Assembly (NCBI RefSeq): GCF_003344965.1
Contig: NZ_CP031194.1
Location: 1,736,001-1,800,000 of the forward strand
Source of the DNA: Streptomyces paludis
Lineage (GTDB): Bacteria; Actinomycetota; Actinomycetes; Streptomycetales; Streptomycetaceae
Reading direction: 5' to 3'
DNA length: 64,000 nt
Positions 55,280-62,922 of the stretch are shown piece by piece (the stretch's first letter is position 1; each line of letters opens with the position of its first letter). The translations under genes were made by a program, and so were the position numbers. The notes beneath the pieces were generated by a model. The model made no database searches. It was not told the DNA's origin and worked only from the letters and a program-made list of their open reading frames with translations.

Positions 55280-56299
55280 GTGACCTCGGATACGGACACA
55301 GACCTGGATATGGGTACGGGTACGGGTACGGGTACGGGGGCAAGCACGGGCGCGCGCGCCTCCCAGGACGCCGGGCGCCGCCCCGCCCGCGCCCGCCGCC
55401 GTACCCGCGCCCCCGCCACCCCCAGCAGCACCGTCGCCCGGCCCGGTGTCGGCTGGGCCCTGCCCGCCACCTTGTTCTTCGGCCTCTTCGCCCTCGTCCC
55501 GCTCGTGCTCGTCGCCGTCCTGTCCTTCGCCTCCTGGGACGGGCTCGGCGCCCCGCAGTTCGCCGGCACGGACAACTGGGCCAAGCTGCTGGACGACCCG
55601 GTGATGATCAGGAGCCTCTGGCTGAGTCTGCTGCTCACCGTGCTCGGCGTGGTCACCCAGACCCCGCTGGCCATCCTGCTCGGCGTCTGGGCCGCCGGGC
55701 CGCAGCGCAACCGGGCCGTGCTCTCGGCGGTCTTCTTCGTCCCGCTGCTGCTGTCCGCCACCGCCATCTCCGTACTCTGGCGGGCGCTGCTCGACCCCAA
55801 CTTCGGGGTGCCCGCGCAGGCGCGCTGGCTCTTCGGGGACGGCAATCTGCTGGGCTCGCGCGACGGCGCCATCGCCGTGCTCGTCCTCGTCGCCGCCTGG
55901 CAGTTCACACCGCTGCACGCGCTGATCTACCAGGGTGCGGCCCGCGCCGTCCCGGAGGTCCTCTACCAGGCGGCGTCGATCGACGGCGCCGGGACCGTAC
56001 GGCAGTTCTTCCACATCACCTTGCCGCAGCTGCGCAACTCCATCATCACGTCCGTGATCCTCATGGTGGTCGGCGGGCTCACCACCTTCGACACCGTGCT
56101 GATCCTGACCCAGGGCGGCCCCGGCACCGACACCACCATCACCGCCTTCTACATGTACCAAAAGGCGTTCAAGGGCTTCGAGTTCGGCATCGGCTCGGCC
56201 ATCGCGCTGCTGCTGGTCGTCGTCGCGACGCTGATCTCGCTGGTCGTCGTACGGATGTCGGGCTACGACCGGATGGCCGGCACGAAGGAGGGGATGTGA
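55280..56299 (+). CDS. Sugar ABC transporter permease (MalF/BxlF-like)
   Basis: 339 aa with six membrane segments. The N-terminal 55 residues are cytosolic low complexity including MGTGTGTGTG, encoded by four GGGTAC hexamers (55312-55335), and an Arg-rich stretch. The EAA loop that contacts the ATPase is YQAASIDGAGTVRQFFHITL. LTQGGPGTDTTITAFYMYQK is typical of MalF-type sugar permeases. It starts with GTG 55280, 8 bases after the binding-protein stop. No ATPase gene is in the operon; such systems share the general MsiK ATPase in Streptomyces (established knowledge). Confidence 0.9.
   Translation: MTSDTDTDLDMGTGTGTGTGASTGARASQDAGRRPARARRRTRAPATPSSTVARPGVGWALPATLFFGLFALVPLVLVAVLSFASWDGLGAPQFAGTDNWAKLLDDPVMIRSLWLSLLLTVLGVVTQTPLAILLGVWAAGPQRNRAVLSAVFFVPLLLSATAISVLWRALLDPNFGVPAQARWLFGDGNLLGSRDGAIAVLVLVAAWQFTPLHALIYQGAARAVPEVLYQAASIDGAGTVRQFFHITLPQLRNSIITSVILMVVGGLTTFDTVLILTQGGPGTDTTITAFYMYQKAFKGFEFGIGSAIALLLVVVATLISLVVVRMSGYDRMAGTKEGM
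55312..55338. repeat. GGGTAC hexanucleotide repeat
   Basis: Four perfect GGGTAC units (55312-55335) plus GGG, in frame within the permease gene, coding Gly-Thr repeats. Slippage would change length without a frameshift. Confidence 0.85.
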
Positions 56300-57168
56300 C
56301 GACCAACACCACGCACACGAACCACTCAAAGGGCAGGAACCGCTCCGTCACCCGTGGCCGCCCCAACTACGCCGCCGGATTCGGGGCGTTGCTCTGGCTC
56401 TGCGTCGTCGCGCTCCCCCTGTACGTGATGATCGGCGCGACCCTCCAGTCCCGCCCCGACTACACCGCCGGCGGCCCGCTCTCGCTGCCGCGCAATCTCA
56501 CCCTCTCCAACTACACCCAGGACTTCTCCAGCGGCTTCGGCCGCTACTTCCTCAACACCGTCGTGGTCACCGCGAGCGTCGTCGGGCTCGTGTGTCTGCT
56601 CGTGCCGCCGCTGGCCTTCGCCATCGTCCGCAACCGGGGCCTCGCCACCTCCCGGATCTTCCGGATCTTCCTGCTGGGGCTCGCCATCCCCGCGCAGGCG
56701 GTGATCGTGCCGATGTTCTACGTGATCAGCAAGGCCGGGCTGTACGACAACCTCATCGGTGTCATCCTGCCCACCGCCGCGTTCTGTCTGCCCGTCTGTG
56801 TGCTCATCCTCACCGGCACCATGCGCGACATCACGAGCGACCTGTTCGAGGCCATGGCCATCGACGGCGCGACCACCCGGCGGGTCTTCTTCCAGCTCGT
56901 CGTCCCGCTCTCCAAGGGCGGTCTCGCGACCATCGTGGTGTTCTCCGCGCTCCAGGCGTGGAACGGCTTCCTCTTCCCGCTCGTGCTGACCCAGTCCGAG
57001 GAGACGAAGGTGCTCACCCTCGGTCTGTACGACTTCCAGACCCAGCACGGGGTGGACATCCCCGGTCTGCTGGCGGCCGTGGTCCTCTCCACACTGCCCG
57101 TCCTGTTCGTCTATCTGTTTGCCCGCAGAGCCCTGGTCCAGGGGCTGATGGGCGTCGGAGGAAAGTGA
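56296..57168 (+). CDS. Sugar ABC transporter permease (MalG/BxlG-like)
   Basis: 290 aa, six membrane segments. The EAA loop is LFEAMAIDGATTRRVFFQLVVPL and LPRNLTLSNYTQDFSSGFGR is typical of MalG-type sugar permeases. It starts at GTG 56296, overlapping the stop of the first permease by 4 bases (GTGA). The pair forms the channel for the sugar bound by the lipoprotein. Its own stop overlaps the GH3 start in the same way. Confidence 0.9.
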   Translation: MTTNTTHTNHSKGRNRSVTRGRPNYAAGFGALLWLCVVALPLYVMIGATLQSRPDYTAGGPLSLPRNLTLSNYTQDFSSGFGRYFLNTVVVTASVVGLVCLLVPPLAFAIVRNRGLATSRIFRIFLLGLAIPAQAVIVPMFYVISKAGLYDNLIGVILPTAAFCLPVCVLILTGTMRDITSDLFEAMAIDGATTRRVFFQLVVPLSKGGLATIVVFSALQAWNGFLFPLVLTQSEETKVLTLGLYDFQTQHGVDIPGLLAAVVLSTLPVLFVYLFARRALVQGLMGVGGK

Positions 57169-59717
57169 CCCACAACGTGAGCGACACACTCAACGGCGGC
57201 ACACTCAACAGCGACGCACTCGACGCCGACACACTCGACGGCAGTACGGAACGCACCGCCCTCGACGTACGCGCCGACGTACGCGCCGACGCGCGGGCCA
57301 CCGCCCGGGCCGAGCGCGTCGAGGCCCTCGTCGCCGCCATGACCCTCGACGAGAAACTCGCCCAGCTCTACGGCCTGTGGGCCGGCGCGTCCGCCGACGG
57401 CGCCGAAGTCGCCCCGTACCAGCACGACATGGAGACCCCGCCGACGCTGGACGAGCTACTGCCGCACGGGCTGGGGCAGTTGACCCGGCCGTTCGGTACG
57501 GTCCCGGTCGATCCGGCGCTGGGCGCGCTCTCCCTGATGCGCACCCAGGAACGTATCGTCGCCGCCGGCCGCTTCGGCATCCCGGCGATGGCGCACGACG
57601 AGTGCCTCGCCGGCTTCGCCGCGTGGGGCGCCACCACGTACCCCGTCCCGCTCTCCTGGGGGGCGTCCTTCGATCCCGCGTTGGTACGGGAGATGGCGGG
57701 CGCGATCGGCCGCGACATGCGCTCGGTGGGGCTGCACCAGGGGCTGGCCCCGGTGCTCGACGTGGTGCGCGACGCGCGCTGGGGGCGGGTCGAGGAGACC
57801 ATCGGCGAGGATCCGTACCTGGTCGGGACGGTCGCCACGGCCTACGTACAGGGCCTGGAGTCCGCCGGGATCGTCGCGACGCTCAAGCACTTCGCCGGAT
57901 ACGCGGCCTCGCGCGCCGGGCGCAATCTCGCGCCGGTGAGCATGGGCGCCCGGGAGCTGGCGGATGTGGTGCTGCCACCGTTCGAGATGGCGGTACGGGA
58001 GAGCGGCGTACGGTCCGTGATGCACGCGTACAACGACATCGACGGGGTGCCCTGCGCGGCGGACGGCGAGCTGCTGACCGAACTGCTGCGCGGGACCTGG
58101 GGGTTCGAGGGTACGGTCGTCGCCGACTACTTCGGCGTCGGCTTCCTCAGAACACTGCACGGGGTGGCGGCCGACTGGGGCGAGGCGGCCACGATGGCGC
58201 TCGGCGCGGGGGTCGATGTGGAGCTGCCGACCGTCAAGACCTTCCGCGAACCCCTGCGGGCGGCGATCGCCGCCGGGCGGCTGCCGGAGGAGACGGTCGA
58301 CCGCGCGCTGCGCCGCGTCCTGACACAGAAGGCGGGGCTGGGCCTGCTGGACCCGGACTGGACGCCACGCCCCACCGCGCTCACGGACCGGGGCCCCGGC
58401 ACCCACCGTCATCGCGACGATCCGGACACACTGCGCGGCAGTGTCACCCTGGACTCCCCCGCACACCGGGACATCTCCCGCCGGCTCGCGGAACGGTCGG
58501 TGATCCTGCTCCGCAATGACGGCACACTGCCGCTGGGCGGCGGCCCGGTGACGATCGCGGTCATCGGCCCGCAGGCGGAGTCACCGACGGCCGTGCTCGG
58601 CTGCTACTCGTTCCCGGTCCATGTCGGCTCCCAGCACCCGGACACCCCGGCGGGCATCGAACTTCCCACACTGCGCGAGGCGTTGGCGGCCGAGTTCCCG
58701 GGCGCGGAGATCGTCACGGCGCTGGGCACGGACATCTCCGATGACAACGATGCCGCCGGTTCGGGGGGTTCCTCCGGCGCGGACGGGATCGCCGAGGCCG
58801 TACGGCTGGCGCGCGGCGCGGATGTCGTCATCGCGGCCCTGGGCGACCGCGCCGGGCTCTTCGGACGCGGTACGAGCGGCGAGGGCTGCGACGCCGAGAG
58901 CCTCGAACTGCCCGGACGGCAGCGCCAGTTGCTGGACGCGCTGCTGGACGCCTGCCAGGAGACCGGGACCCCGCTGGTGGTCACCCTGCTGGCCGGCCGG
59001 CCGTACGCGCTGGGCCGGGCGGCCACCGGGGCCGCGGCCGTCGTGCAGTCCTTCTTCCCCGGCCAGGAGGGCACACCGGCGCTCGCCGGGGTGCTCAGCG
59101 GCCGGATCGAACCGTCGGGCCGGCTCCCGGTGAGTGTGCCGCGGCTGACGGGCGCCCAGCCGTCCACGTATCTGGCCGCGCCGCTGGCCCGGCTCACCGA
59201 GGTCTCGAACATCGACCCGACGCCCGACTTCGCCTTCGGCCACGGGCTGTCGTACACCTCCTTCGACTGGTCGGAGCTGACGGTGGAGGCGGCCGGGACC
59301 GCCCGTACGGACGGCACGCTGGAGCTGTCCTTCACCGTCCGCAACACGGGCGACCGGGCCGGCACCGAGGTCGTCCAGCTGTATCTGCACGATCCCGTCG
59401 CGTCGGTCGTCCAGCCGGTACAGCGGCTGATCGGCTACGCGCGCGTACCGCTGGGGCCGGACGAGCGGGCCCGCGTCGCGGTGCGCGTACCTGCCGACCT
59501 CGCCTCGTTCACCGGACGCGACGGGCGCCGGCGCGTCGAACCGGGGGCGCTGGAAATGCGGTTGGCGGCCTCCAGCGCGGATGTACGGCTCACCGCCGCC
59601 GTGACGCTGACCGGTCCCGTACGGCAGGTGGACCACACGAGGGAGCTGCACACGGTATTCACCATCACGCACGACACACCGCGCGACGCCACCCCGAAGG
59701 TCCGGCGGCGCGACTGA
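57165..59717 (+). CDS. Cytosolic GH3 beta-glucosidase/beta-xylosidase (BxlA-like)
   Basis: 850 aa. Three-domain GH3 enzyme: an (alpha/beta)8 N-domain with DARWGRVEETIGEDPYLVG, the substrate-binding LKHFAGYAASRAGRN, HAYNDIDGVPCAADGELLT and catalytic nucleophile Asp in TVVADYFGVGFL. It continues with the alpha/beta sandwich (ALGDRAGLFGRGTSGEGCD) and a C-terminal fibronectin-like domain (LSFTVRNTGDRAGTEVVQLY). No signal peptide, so it acts on imported disaccharide in the cytosol. GTG 57165 overlaps the permease stop (GTGA) with GGAGG 3 bases upstream; GTG 57177 is an alternative. The N-terminal 55 residues include Asp/Thr/Leu and Ala/Arg/Asp repeats. BxlA-type enzymes cleave xylobiose; glucoside activity is equally possible by sequence. 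Confidence 0.9.
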   Translation: MTHNVSDTLNGGTLNSDALDADTLDGSTERTALDVRADVRADARATARAERVEALVAAMTLDEKLAQLYGLWAGASADGAEVAPYQHDMETPPTLDELLPHGLGQLTRPFGTVPVDPALGALSLMRTQERIVAAGRFGIPAMAHDECLAGFAAWGATTYPVPLSWGASFDPALVREMAGAIGRDMRSVGLHQGLAPVLDVVRDARWGRVEETIGEDPYLVGTVATAYVQGLESAGIVATLKHFAGYAASRAGRNLAPVSMGARELADVVLPPFEMAVRESGVRSVMHAYNDIDGVPCAADGELLTELLRGTWGFEGTVVADYFGVGFLRTLHGVAADWGEAATMALGAGVDVELPTVKTFREPLRAAIAAGRLPEETVDRALRRVLTQKAGLGLLDPDWTPRPTALTDRGPGTHRHRDDPDTLRGSVTLDSPAHRDISRRLAERSVILLRNDGTLPLGGGPVTIAVIGPQAESPTAVLGCYSFPVHVGSQHPDTPAGIELPTLREALAAEFPGAEIVTALGTDISDDNDAAGSGGSSGADGIAEAVRLARGADVVIAALGDRAGLFGRGTSGEGCDAESLELPGRQRQLLDALLDACQETGTPLVVTLLAGRPYALGRAATGAAAVVQSFFPGQEGTPALAGVLSGRIEPSGRLPVSVPRLTGAQPSTYLAAPLARLTEVSNIDPTPDFAFGHGLSYTSFDWSELTVEAAGTARTDGTLELSFTVRNTGDRAGTEVVQLYLHDPVASVVQPVQRLIGYARVPLGPDERARVAVRVPADLASFTGRDGRRRVEPGALEMRLAASSADVRLTAAVTLTGPVRQVDHTRELHTVFTITHDTPRDATPKVRRRD

Positions 59718-59853: not shown

Positions 59854-61695
59854 ATGACCGTACCGTCACAACCGAATCACCCACCCCAGCAACCACACAG
59901 ACCTCCCGTTCAGCCACCGCTCCAGCGACCGCTTCAGCCGCCGCGTCAGCCACCGGGCGCGGCGGCCGACCGGCAGAACTCCGCCACCCGCTACCTGTGC
60001 ACCGGCGTACGCCTCTACGAGGACTTCGCCCGCACCGTCGTCGCCGAGACCCGTTTCGAGCGGATCAAGGCCCGCGCCCCCTCGTACGGGGTCGATCTCG
60101 ACGAGGTCGCCCGGCACGCCGAGGCGGCGCTGCGCGATCTGCGGCTGCGGGACCGGTGGGTGGGCGCGGCGTTCGTGTTCTCTCTGCTCCTCGCGCCCTG
60201 GGTGACGATCCTCTACGCCCTGATCTCCGCCCTGCTGGGCTCCGGCACCCGGCGGAGAATCCGCGTACGGAAGGGGGAGTCGGCGGGCGAGTCGGCCGGC
60301 CCCGCGCATCTGAGGAAGCCGCAGGGATCCCAGATCGGCGCCATCGCCCGGCCGCTGATCACCCAGGCCCTGGTGCTGCTCGCCGCCTGCTGGTTCGGCC
60401 CGCTCTTCCTCTGGTCGCCGCCGGCCTTCGCGACGTACGTAATGACGATGGCGCTGCTGATCGGCTGCCCCTGGTACTTCACCTGGCGCCAGCGCTCGGC
60501 CGCGTGGGCCGTCGTACGGCAGGAGCTGCGCCCCGGTCCTCAGGTGCCCGCGCAGGGGGGACCGCCGGCCGCGGCAAGCGACGCGAAGGCCGATGCGACG
60601 GGCAACGCGACGACGGGCGACGACTCGACGGGCGACGCGACGACGGGCGACGACGCAAATCTGATCGCCTACAGCGGCTACACGCCGTTCGTGGGAGCGG
60701 GGGTGCGCTTCAGCTCCTGGTCGTTCGCGAACCGGCTGGTGCCGGAGGGCTGGAAGCCGGGCACCGGCGAGCGTCCGCCGCCGGTGGCGTTCACCACGTC
60801 CGATCTGGTGGACCGGCTCGGCGCCGACCTCGCGGAGCTGTCCGCGCGGACGCCGGGCTCGACGGACGGGATCGTCGGGCTGGAGGTCGGCGAGAAGGTC
60901 TTCGTGCACGGCTCCGCGCTGCTCAGCACACCGCTGATCCCCCCTGCCGAGATCTGGCCGGGCGGCGAGTGGGCGGCGCCGGGCCTGAAGCGCCCCACCG
61001 ACCGGCTGCCGCGGCACCGGATCACGGCGGCGCGCGGGCTGATCGACGGGCCGCTGCGGCACTGCCTGTGCGTGCAGATCCGCAGTTGGGACACCGATCT
61101 GGTGCTGACGGTGTTCGTCCAGGTCGCGCTCAACGGGGGCACGCTCTACCTCCAGTCCGACACCCGGGTGCTGGCGCCGGTCAGGGAGGAGTACCGGGTG
61201 GCCGACTCGCTCCACGCCACCGAGAGCGCCGAGGAGGGCGCGCGCCGCGCGGCCGAATCCGTGCTGGCGGCGGGCCCGGTGCTGCTCGCCTCCGTACCGA
61301 ACGTGCTGTCCGAGCTGGGCGCGGCCGGGCGGCTGCGGCGCTGGGAGGAGGAGGAACGCTGGGCCATCGAACGGGACAAGCGGTACGACTTCGGCGCGCA
61401 TCTCAGCCTCCGCGAGGCGGCGGCGTCACCGAACTACCGCAACTTCTTCCAGTTCGTCGACGCGACGAGAACGGGCAAGCAGGTCGAGTTGCAGGTGCTC
61501 GGCTCCGTCCTGAACTTCCTCGCGGAACACGGTCTGGACGTCAGCGACCTGGACGCGCGCAGGACGACGATCCTGAACAACGGCGTGATGATGTACGGCG
61601 GTTCCGTGAACGGCAGCATCGCCGCCGGTACGGGCGCGACGGCCACGACGAACGGCCCCGGCGGGGCGGGCCCGGCCCCGAGCGCCGCCAAGTGA
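59854..61695 (+). CDS. Membrane protein of unknown function with C-terminal Gly/Asn motif
   Basis: 613 aa. Residues 1-40 are Pro/Gln-rich. A helical region (YLCTGVRLYEDFARTVVAET) precedes three hydrophobic segments, about residues 102-128, 168-188 and 192-210. The remainder is a large soluble, probably cytosolic part with YSGYTPFVGAGVRFSSWSFA and VEYRVADSLHATE-like regions. Residues 575-595 form a Gly/Asn-rich motif (begins NNGVMMYGGSV, continues NGSIAAGTGA) matching the N-terminus of the next protein. ATG 59854 has GGGGA about 7 bases upstream. I do not recognise a named family. It and the next gene form a two-gene unit separated by 41 bases. Confidence 0.75.
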   Translation: MTVPSQPNHPPQQPHRPPVQPPLQRPLQPPRQPPGAAADRQNSATRYLCTGVRLYEDFARTVVAETRFERIKARAPSYGVDLDEVARHAEAALRDLRLRDRWVGAAFVFSLLLAPWVTILYALISALLGSGTRRRIRVRKGESAGESAGPAHLRKPQGSQIGAIARPLITQALVLLAACWFGPLFLWSPPAFATYVMTMALLIGCPWYFTWRQRSAAWAVVRQELRPGPQVPAQGGPPAAASDAKADATGNATTGDDSTGDATTGDDANLIAYSGYTPFVGAGVRFSSWSFANRLVPEGWKPGTGERPPPVAFTTSDLVDRLGADLAELSARTPGSTDGIVGLEVGEKVFVHGSALLSTPLIPPAEIWPGGEWAAPGLKRPTDRLPRHRITAARGLIDGPLRHCLCVQIRSWDTDLVLTVFVQVALNGGTLYLQSDTRVLAPVREEYRVADSLHATESAEEGARRAAESVLAAGPVLLASVPNVLSELGAAGRLRRWEEEERWAIERDKRYDFGAHLSLREAAASPNYRNFFQFVDATRTGKQVELQVLGSVLNFLAEHGLDVSDLDARRTTILNNGVMMYGGSVNGSIAAGTGATATTNGPGGAGPAPSAAK

Positions 61696-61736
61696 CGTAC
61701 AGGCAGCCACACTTCGACGAGCGAGAGGACCCCGCC

Positions 61737-62123
61737 ATGAGCGTGAACGACGGGCCGCAGATGAACGAAGGCATTGTGATCGGTGGAAACGCGCAGGTCA
61801 GCGGCGGCTCCATGGCGGCGGGCCGCAACGCGCGGGCGGTCTCGTACCAACTGCCCGGCGGCGCCGCGGACCCCGAGGCGCTGCGTGCCGCGCTGGAGAG
61901 CATCGCCGAGCTGAGGCGCGCGCTGGCGGCGGAGACCGCCACCCCTTCGGAAGCCCTGGCGGAGGCCGAGGCGGCCGAAGTTGACCTCGCCGCCACCACG
62001 CCGGACCCGGACCGCGTCCTGGGCCGTCTGGAGCGGCTGCGCGCGCTGCTGGGGAGCGGGACGGCGCTGCTGGCGCTGGTGGCGTCGGCGCAGGAGAGCG
62101 TACGAGCGATCGTAAGCGGCTGA
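61737..62123 (+). CDS. Small helical protein with matching N-terminal Gly/Asn motif
   Basis: 128 aa. Residues 10-32 read NEGIVIGGNAQVSGGS then MAAGRNA, matching the C-terminal motif of the upstream membrane protein at N-x-G-hydrophobic, GG, V, GS and AAG. The rest (residues about 45-128) is helical (LRAALESIAELRRALAAE, DRVLGRLERLRALLGSGT). No signal or membrane segment. GAGAGG lies about 8 bases before the ATG. The layout, a short repeat-like motif plus a helical domain beside a partner carrying the same motif, suggests motif-mediated assembly between the two proteins. Function unknown. Confidence 0.75.
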   Translation: MSVNDGPQMNEGIVIGGNAQVSGGSMAAGRNARAVSYQLPGGAADPEALRAALESIAELRRALAAETATPSEALAEAEAAEVDLAATTPDPDRVLGRLERLRALLGSGTALLALVASAQESVRAIVSG

Positions 62124-62145
62124 ACACCTGAGCACCCGAGCACCC

Positions 62146-62192
62146 CGAACTCCCCTTCCCCGCCGTACGGTTCACCCGGGAAGGGGAGTTCG
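62146..62192 (+). terminator. Hairpin terminator with T-rich tail
   Basis: CGAACTCCCCTTCCC (62146-62160) pairs perfectly with 62178-62192 over a 17-nt loop and is followed by ATGTTTGT. It ends the two-gene unit at 59854-62123. Confidence 0.85.
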
Positions 62193-62286
62193 ATGTTTGT
62201 CCGTCCGGACTCTACCCATCAGTAACCTGTAACTGTCACGATGCGGTCGACCCTTCAGCCCCCGCCCCTCACCCAAGGAGCCCGGC

Positions 62287-62922
62287 ATGGCGGCATTCGG
62301 CCGACTCAGCAGCATCGCCACAACAGCGGCGCTCACCGCGGCACTGGCCGCGGGCACCGCCCTCCCCGCCCTGGCAGCGGCGCCCACAGCGACCCCCGCC
62401 GCCACCACCGCAGCGGCGGCGGCGGCGAAACCGGACTACGCCACATGGCAGGCCGATATCGCCGTCGTCCTGGACGAGGCCGACGCCTACGTCGCCGCCC
62501 GTATCGCCGCCGCACCGGCCGGCGAGAAGCCCGCGATCGTCCTGGACATCGACAACACGTCACTGGAGACCGACTACTCCTCGGCCATCCCGACCCCTGC
62601 CATCCGCCGCACCCTCGCCCTGGCCAACTTCGCCCACGCCCGGGGCGTCAAGATCTTCTTCGTCTCGGCCCGCCCCGACCTCATCCAGCCGATCACCGAG
62701 TACAACCTGAAGAAGGTCGGCTATCCGGTGGACGGCCTCTACAGCCGCTCGTTCCTCGACCTGTTCACCGAGGTCAGCAAGTTCAAGACGGCCCAGCGGG
62801 TGAAGATCGAGAAGAACGGCTACACGATCATCGCCAACATCGGCAACAACACCACAGACCTGACCGGCGGCCACGCCGAACGCACCTTCAAGCTCCCCGA
62901 CTACGACGGCCAGCTCTCCTGA
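62287..62922 (+). CDS. Secreted HAD acid phosphatase (class B-like)
   Basis: 211 aa. Signal peptide (TAALTAALAAGTALPALAAA) then an Ala/Thr-rich spacer. The HAD domain shows motif I VLDIDNTSLETDY (nucleophile and second Asp), motif II KIFFVSARPDL, a Lys near KFKTAQRVKIEKNG and an Asn/Asp motif IIANIGNNTTDLTGGH. It resembles secreted acid phosphatases of the HAD class B/SurE-neighbour type that release phosphate outside the cell. CAAGGAG lies about 8 bases before the ATG. GTAAC and TGTAAC words occur at 62223-62235 but do not make a clear PHO box. Confidence 0.85.
   Translation: MAAFGRLSSIATTAALTAALAAGTALPALAAAPTATPAATTAAAAAAKPDYATWQADIAVVLDEADAYVAARIAAAPAGEKPAIVLDIDNTSLETDYSSAIPTPAIRRTLALANFAHARGVKIFFVSARPDLIQPITEYNLKKVGYPVDGLYSRSFLDLFTEVSKFKTAQRVKIEKNGYTIIANIGNNTTDLTGGHAERTFKLPDYDGQLS

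Follow-up and report, generated by a model that had tools for sequence, protein, structure and literature searches.

The window analysed here, a stretch of 64,000 nucleotides of Streptomyces paludis DNA, carries two consecutive plus-strand genes that we designate M and E. M (59854..61695) encodes a membrane protein of 613 aa. E (61737..62123), read from the ATG at 61737, encodes a partner protein of 128 aa, and the two ORFs, as called, are 41 bases apart. A plus-strand hairpin of 15 pairs at about 62146-62192 is the likely end of this two-gene unit; the 92-base stretch 62124-62215 folds at -39.4 kcal/mol with a z value of -3.8. The first-pass annotation had assigned the pair a terminator of its own, and the strong hairpin after E bears this out in part; on the other hand, a good T-run after the hairpin was absent and a consensus terminator scan gave no listing.

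Translations of the upstream region (55280-59717) pointed to sugar ABC permeases and a GH3-type glucosidase, and those of the downstream region (62287-62922) to a HAD-type acid phosphatase. An M/E-type pair with the same upstream neighbours, in the same order, was found in Streptomyces corynorhini (L040). Such surroundings (sugar transport, glucosidase, phosphatase) look metabolic and count against a defence reading.

The M protein, delineated by ORF call, hydropathy and an AF2 model (31 sequences, pTM 0.77), had zero matches to Pfam or NCBIfam families. Its layout comprises an N-terminal helical part, two to four transmembrane helices (about residues 97-210), an alpha/beta C-terminal domain (about 270-576) and a disordered tail with the motif described below. 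The description of M as a three-segment membrane protein held with regard to the membrane; the number of segments is better given as two to four, since hydropathy shows two clear segments (106-124 and 161-179) and AF2 models four helices (82-113, 115-141, 160-185 and 189-225), with hydrophobic segments within 82-141 and 160-225. Averaged over 31 M proteins, the net charge was positive in three regions: ahead of the first hydrophobic segment (positive in 22 of the proteins), in the linker (in 20) and behind the last segment (in 22); in the turn between TM2 and TM3 it was negative, being positive there in 2 of the 31. From this charge pattern we infer that the M termini, including the C-terminal domain and the motif tail, are probably cytoplasmic.

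A structure search with residues 283-562 of M ranked helix-grip folds of the START/Bet v1/PYL type at the top, below significance, and on this ranking the modelled C-terminal domain is a possible small-molecule or lipid sensor. No Pfam NTPase domain was detected at an E-value of 0.05 in the 31 M proteins, and no NLR domain was found by Pfam in M of the window; nor is there a TIR domain in this pair, as the first-pass annotation had stated. One of the 31 M proteins (L015:721-2493) carries an FHA domain (PF00498, E 2e-13), and one M relative (P0017) is named a zinc ribbon protein; both are variation on the sensor side.

E likewise had zero Pfam or NCBIfam family matches. In its AF2 model (59 sequences) the motif head is followed by a four-helix bundle, predicted for residues 46-127, in which the helices 46-65, 71-85, 91-105 and 109-127 were modelled with confidence (pLDDT of 89-97 in 10-residue blocks from residue 51 onward). 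A structure search with E returned no significant fold match, so that any mode of action proposed for E is a guess. The pLDDT was below 50 for residues 8-40 of E, which hold its motif, as well as for residues 578-613 of M, which hold most of the motif tail. Since the motif regions had low pLDDT in both AF2 models, the motif appears to be a disordered appendage on an otherwise folded body, in M as in E.

The M motif, defined by the sequence and by alignment with the E head, has the core NNGVMMYGGSVNGSIAAG at residues 575-592 (61576-61629) and extends to residue 599 (61576..61650, plus strand). The E motif, defined by the sequence, alignments and a motif profile, has the core NEGIVIGGNAQVSGGSMAAG at residues 10-29 (61764-61823) and extends to residue 37 (61764..61847, plus strand). 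Both motifs quoted in the first-pass annotation are thus present. That of M lies near the C-terminus and not at it: it begins 39 residues from the end and leaves 21 residues after the core, while that of E falls inside the first 37 residues.

With 17 of 38 aligned residues identical, the likeness between the M tail and the E head is modest on its own. The local score of the window pair was 56 (z 5.8) and exceeded the scores of all 500 shuffled heads. The 55 other adjacent pairs of called same-strand ORFs averaged 25.2 and did not exceed 44. In all-by-all comparisons of tails and heads of the ORFs called in the window, however, 6 of 2070 reached 56. Therefore the window pair is not decisive by itself and the family evidence decides; what gives this pair its standing is membership of the family, together with the fact that close orthologues of M and E retain both motifs. 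A motif profile containing both motifs, run against the 8.45 Mb genome with 150 of the 209 candidates scored, gave strong scores to M and E only, the next E-value being 0.09.

A search with the single M protein matched 32 of 41 genomes, its own included. Seven of the eight E matches outside its own genome directly adjoin an M match by position. P0004 and P0010 have the locus tags ACFYYH_21560 and ACFYYH_21565, which suggests that their genes are adjacent. The M profile matched all 61 genomes of the genus, a count to which a tailless core paralogue contributes; 43 of the 61 had one match or more with an E-value no higher than 1e-50, which is approximately where the tailed clade lies. When the draw was widened, matches at 1e-8 were present in 10 of 198 genomes of the phylum, and matches at 1e-50 in 12 of 118 genomes of the class (6 of 72 genera); because the profile includes the motif columns, the profile searches favour tailed members.

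The tailless M paralogue occurs in the Streptomyces genomes searched, in most of them as judged by profile range (for example, L052 and L113 at G000:C1:810527-812083; also L049, L050, L053 and L055-L058). The eight tailless-paralogue loci that we read by eye end without a motif and adjoin no matching head. Several assemblies have M genes interrupted by a frame change or stop (L108, L099, L090/L009 and L023), with intact pairs in relatives; at L023 the partner position holds an apparent transposase (TnpB) fragment. At L021:367-2187 the motif of M looks intact, and the protein that comes next, of 354 aa, is a different one that lacks the motif; the partner of this M may lie elsewhere in the genome. 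In total, 6 of the 79 M rows (L021, L023, L043, L047, L051 and L087) had no matched partner in the stretch examined; an adjacent partner is therefore not obligatory.

The within-pair matching was assessed in 72 diverged M/partner pairs, which form 28 clusters at 50% identity of M. The motif letters differ greatly between pairs and agree within pairs, as illustrated by the M end IEGDNNQVNTGNMGGGMQQ and the start of the next gene VTGSGNQVNTGRVGGDMRQ at L027, by NNGVINTGEMSNVQNQPGA and NSGIQNSGSMQNVQNQPGA at L029, and by HHGSGHISSRNSGTQTQGDQSPVNA and HHGTGNISVGNSGTLSQGDHSPVNA at L017. The mean score over the 28 clusters was 76.7 for the own partner, compared to 33.5 for non-cognate ones. For 20 M tails and 23 partner heads the own partner ranked first among 28, and for 25 tails it was in the top three; 8 of the 28 tails preferred the head of another cluster. 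The own scores added up to 2148, compared to a permuted mean of 981 (sd 67, maximum 1365 in 20,000 permutations). The own match of the window pair ranked 5 of 28, because similar motifs occur in other clusters. For 20 of 25 clusters (65 pairs), the M motif was closer to the head of its unrelated partner than to any homologous M tail of another cluster. Gly, Asn and Ser are more frequent in the motif segments than in the M body, and Leu and Arg less frequent. Two motif copies were seen by eye in seven partners (L084, L086, L089, L091, L092, L121 and L123).

The selection of partners has to be kept in mind in reading these counts. A motif-blind pass over 72 M rows, 69 of which had a same-strand ORF downstream (28 of 31 clusters tested), gave an own mean of 70.2 compared to 32.5 for non-cognate partners, and the own partner was best for 19 of the 28 representatives. 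Of the nine non-best cases, four are accounted for: L106 was a wrong ORF, one L099 row was a frame artefact, and L021 and L051 lacked a motif-bearing partner. After this pass the L106 partner was set by hand, and the L099 row and the six rows without a matched partner were dropped, leaving 65 pairs. The seven further partners, from the class-wide draw, were picked from the listed ORFs with the motif known; a matching pair was present at all seven loci, with scores of 53-127. Thus 72 of the 79 M rows entered the pair test; the L099 row left out is a frame artefact of a retained locus. L108, whose interrupted M gene is accompanied by a PNP partner with a matching motif, stands outside the 72. 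In the set used for the control of neighbouring pairs, 16 of the 18 M-to-next pairs scored 56 or more; the low scores of L117 and L090 came from wrong ORFs, and both loci matched in the test of 72 pairs.

These observations support the reading of M and E as a signalling pair. The refuting case set out in the first-pass annotation, loss of the likeness in orthologues or a motif in one of the two genes alone, did not arise: the similarity was retained in close orthologues, and 72 diverged pairs carried matched motifs of their own on both sides. We consider pairing of M with E through the motif very probable.

The partners in the 72 pairs fall into four classes: 61 small proteins placed with E, six TIR proteins, four PNP_UDP proteins and one EAD1 protein. 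The E-type placement rests on an alignment of 55 relatives with the window E, the latter being the one protein folded. The TIR partners are of the CAP12-PCTIR_TIR type (five of the six were scanned, with E 7e-21 or better; L085 is a near copy of L016). The PNP_UDP_1-type partners were assigned by scan at L107 and L126 and by likeness at L109 and L127, with L108 as a further case outside the count. The single EAD1 partner matched with E 1e-13. A quick tree of M, with long branches, placed the TIR-linked M proteins in one clade and the PNP-linked ones in another, and it requires no fewer than three switches between partner classes.

According to PMC7159879 and PMC8195603, TIR, PNPase and EAD domains serve bacterial conflict systems as effectors or adaptors, so that a signal running from M to the partner is likely. 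Association of M relatives with such proteins strengthens the signalling reading. As the tails of these relatives couple to CAP12/PCTIR TIR proteins, PNP_UDP phosphorylases or an EAD1 adaptor, the partner of M is very probably the effector.

Could the two ends simply be look-alike Gly/Asn/Ala-rich linkers that converged on low complexity? The six window comparisons that reached the score of the true pair would agree with this, as would the three of 72 pairs (L075, L013 and L125) that failed to beat all their own shuffles. Yet heads shuffled at constant composition scored lower, all 500 of them, in 69 of the 72 pairs and for 27 of the 28 representatives, non-cognate motifs of similar composition fell far below the own ones, and none of the 55 other neighbouring ORF pairs exceeded 44. 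These three controls refute the explanation at the level of the family, and we regard it as the least credible of those considered. Hardly more credible is that the likeness is a functionless by-product of DNA events, in which the M end and the beginning of the following gene would have come to share sequence by gene conversion or a short duplication. A few pairs do share nearly the same codons (22 of 25 at L127, 13 of 14 at L054 and 11 of 12 at L105), and gene conversion may help to keep some pairs matched. Still, 190 of 455 identical motif residues (42%) in the 28 representatives have different codons, as do 11 of 17 in the window pair, so that the likeness is not a recent DNA duplication; with synonymous differences so common in the shared residues, the matching is maintained at the protein level. 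Besides, many lineages show the pattern, again at these two ends, with motif letters of their own and partners of four classes. Codon differences and recurrence together largely refute this explanation as well.

A different matter is an explanation that accepts the pairing and dispenses with amyloid: the motif would serve as an interaction tag, holding M and its partner in a static complex via a small paired beta-arch or beta-roll, with M acting as an anchor at the membrane or as an inhibitor whose release is the signal. We consider this explanation, with its variants taken together, unlikely. Any self-complementary interface would yield the same sequence data, and the close spacing of the genes fits a stoichiometric complex: intergenic gaps ranged from -59 to +92 bases with overlap in 39 of 65 pairs, counted from automated, most upstream starts, by which the window pair was scored as overlapping though read at +41 and the L106 gap reflects a wrong ORF. 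However, a fixed hetero-interface does not need sides that are near copies of each other, and the mutual likeness fits homotypic stacking better; the duplicated motifs in some partners and the modelled disorder of both ends also fit stacking.

The reading that we prefer, and hold to be probable, is that M is the sensor and E the effector of a pair that is coupled through a short homotypic motif and works by stacking of the tails. M in the membrane would sense a ligand, membrane damage or infection; the M molecules would then cluster and their tails would order into a beta-rich stack. This stack would serve as a template on which the N-terminal heads of E adopt a like fold, and would so gather E molecules, leading to their activation, and E might act via its four-helix bundle, perhaps on the membrane. 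The sequence of sensing, clustering and nucleation of a partner-recruiting stack is drawn by analogy with the NLR/BASS and RHIM systems. Amyloid-type templating between the M tail and the E head seems rather likely by the same analogy; the likeness within pairs, the enrichment in Gly, Asn and Ser, the duplication of the motif and the large divergence between pairs (insulation) fit it. Since the partners in related pairs include TIR, phosphorylase-type and EAD1 proteins, an output in stress, defence or cell death is suggested, and we hold a defence or cell-death output to be somewhat likely. Overall, the paired motifs are confirmed as an observation, the pairing is strongly supported and the amyloid mechanism, argued from analogy, is likely.

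A 2021 review raises the question whether signalling amyloids also act in NLR-independent pathways of fungi and bacteria (PMC7889193). The M/E family is a direct and testable candidate for such amyloids. It offers two short peptides per pair, many motif variants for the study of cognate specificity, and assayable effectors (TIR and phosphorylase). If the proposal is true, bacteria have a membrane sensor upstream of amyloid signalling, and proteins without a family name acquire a function. The balance tips slightly toward a broader statement: that Actinobacteria hold a large unnamed class of NLR-independent amyloid signalosomes, with a membrane sensor whose cytoplasmic domain possibly binds a ligand, a pair-specific C-terminal amyloid motif that templates one of several exchangeable effectors (four-helix bundle, TIR, PNP_UDP and EAD1) and dozens of mutually insulated specificities.

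We found no description of a membrane pair of this kind in the open-access literature searched. Among named families, DUF5955 (PF19380) was matched by 19 of 59 E-type proteins at an E-value of 0.05 or better (best 1.2e-11), while E of the window had no match to it up to E 1; the name DUF5955 itself was found in none of the open-access texts searched.

PGRP-LC of Drosophila is a membrane receptor. Its signalling with Imd belongs to the RHIM or PP motif systems, for which a RHIM core G-(I,V)-Q-(I,V)-G is given in the part of PMC7885112 used, and it offers a precedent for a membrane receptor that employs a short RHIM-like motif. A RHIM-like pattern [VILF]x[VILF]GxxN was present on both sides in 9 of the 72 M/partner pairs, compared to 0.02 in shuffles. 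The exact core occurred in none of the 72, and no RHIM family was among the Pfam matches listed for M and E-type proteins. As far as that source describes them, the RHIM receptor and effector are unrelated to M and E, and the exact core marks a further difference.

EADs are folded domains, whereas the M/E family uses disordered motifs of about 30 residues. One partner in the M family carries EAD1 itself. The excerpted text of PMC7159879 describes EAD-coupled systems and EACC1 membrane two-gene conflict systems in multicellular bacteria; there, too, related terminal adaptors link neighbouring gene products to TIR, PNPase and other effectors. No EACC1 match was found in the M proteins scanned and no caspase among the partners scanned (E-type, TIR, PNP_UDP and EAD1), so the pairs differ from the EACC1 two-gene arrangement; three E-type proteins had weak EACC1 scores, 0.0016 at best.

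The PNP_UDP partners recall the fungal NLR/PNP_UDP pairs that share the PUASM motif, as given in the part of PMC9815663 used: in both, a PNP_UDP protein has a terminal amyloid motif in common with a receptor. The fungal system differs, on that description, in its NLR receptor, in the C-terminal position of the effector motif and in the motif pattern.

The closest comparison is with the pairs of filamentous bacteria that use bacterial amyloid signalling sequences (BASS), which, according to PMC7889193, PMC8086366 and PMC12261475, carry the motif N-terminally on an NLR and C-terminally on a Bell effector. The M/E pairs likewise consist of adjacent genes whose products each bear a short motif at one terminus. 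Further likenesses, on the same descriptions, are the many motif families, the helical effector as the commonest type, TIR effectors (reported in BASS too) and actinobacteria among the hosts. The differences, as far as these sources go, are that the M receptor is a membrane protein without a detectable NLR (NB-ARC/NACHT) domain, that the order of motifs is reversed, with the receptor motif C-terminal and the effector motif N-terminal, that the E motif precedes a predicted four-helix bundle not assigned to Bell, and that PNP_UDP and EAD1 partners occur in the M family. Given a receptor without an NLR domain and the reversed motif order, we describe the M/E pairs as a system that would work like BASS and do not file them as BASS.
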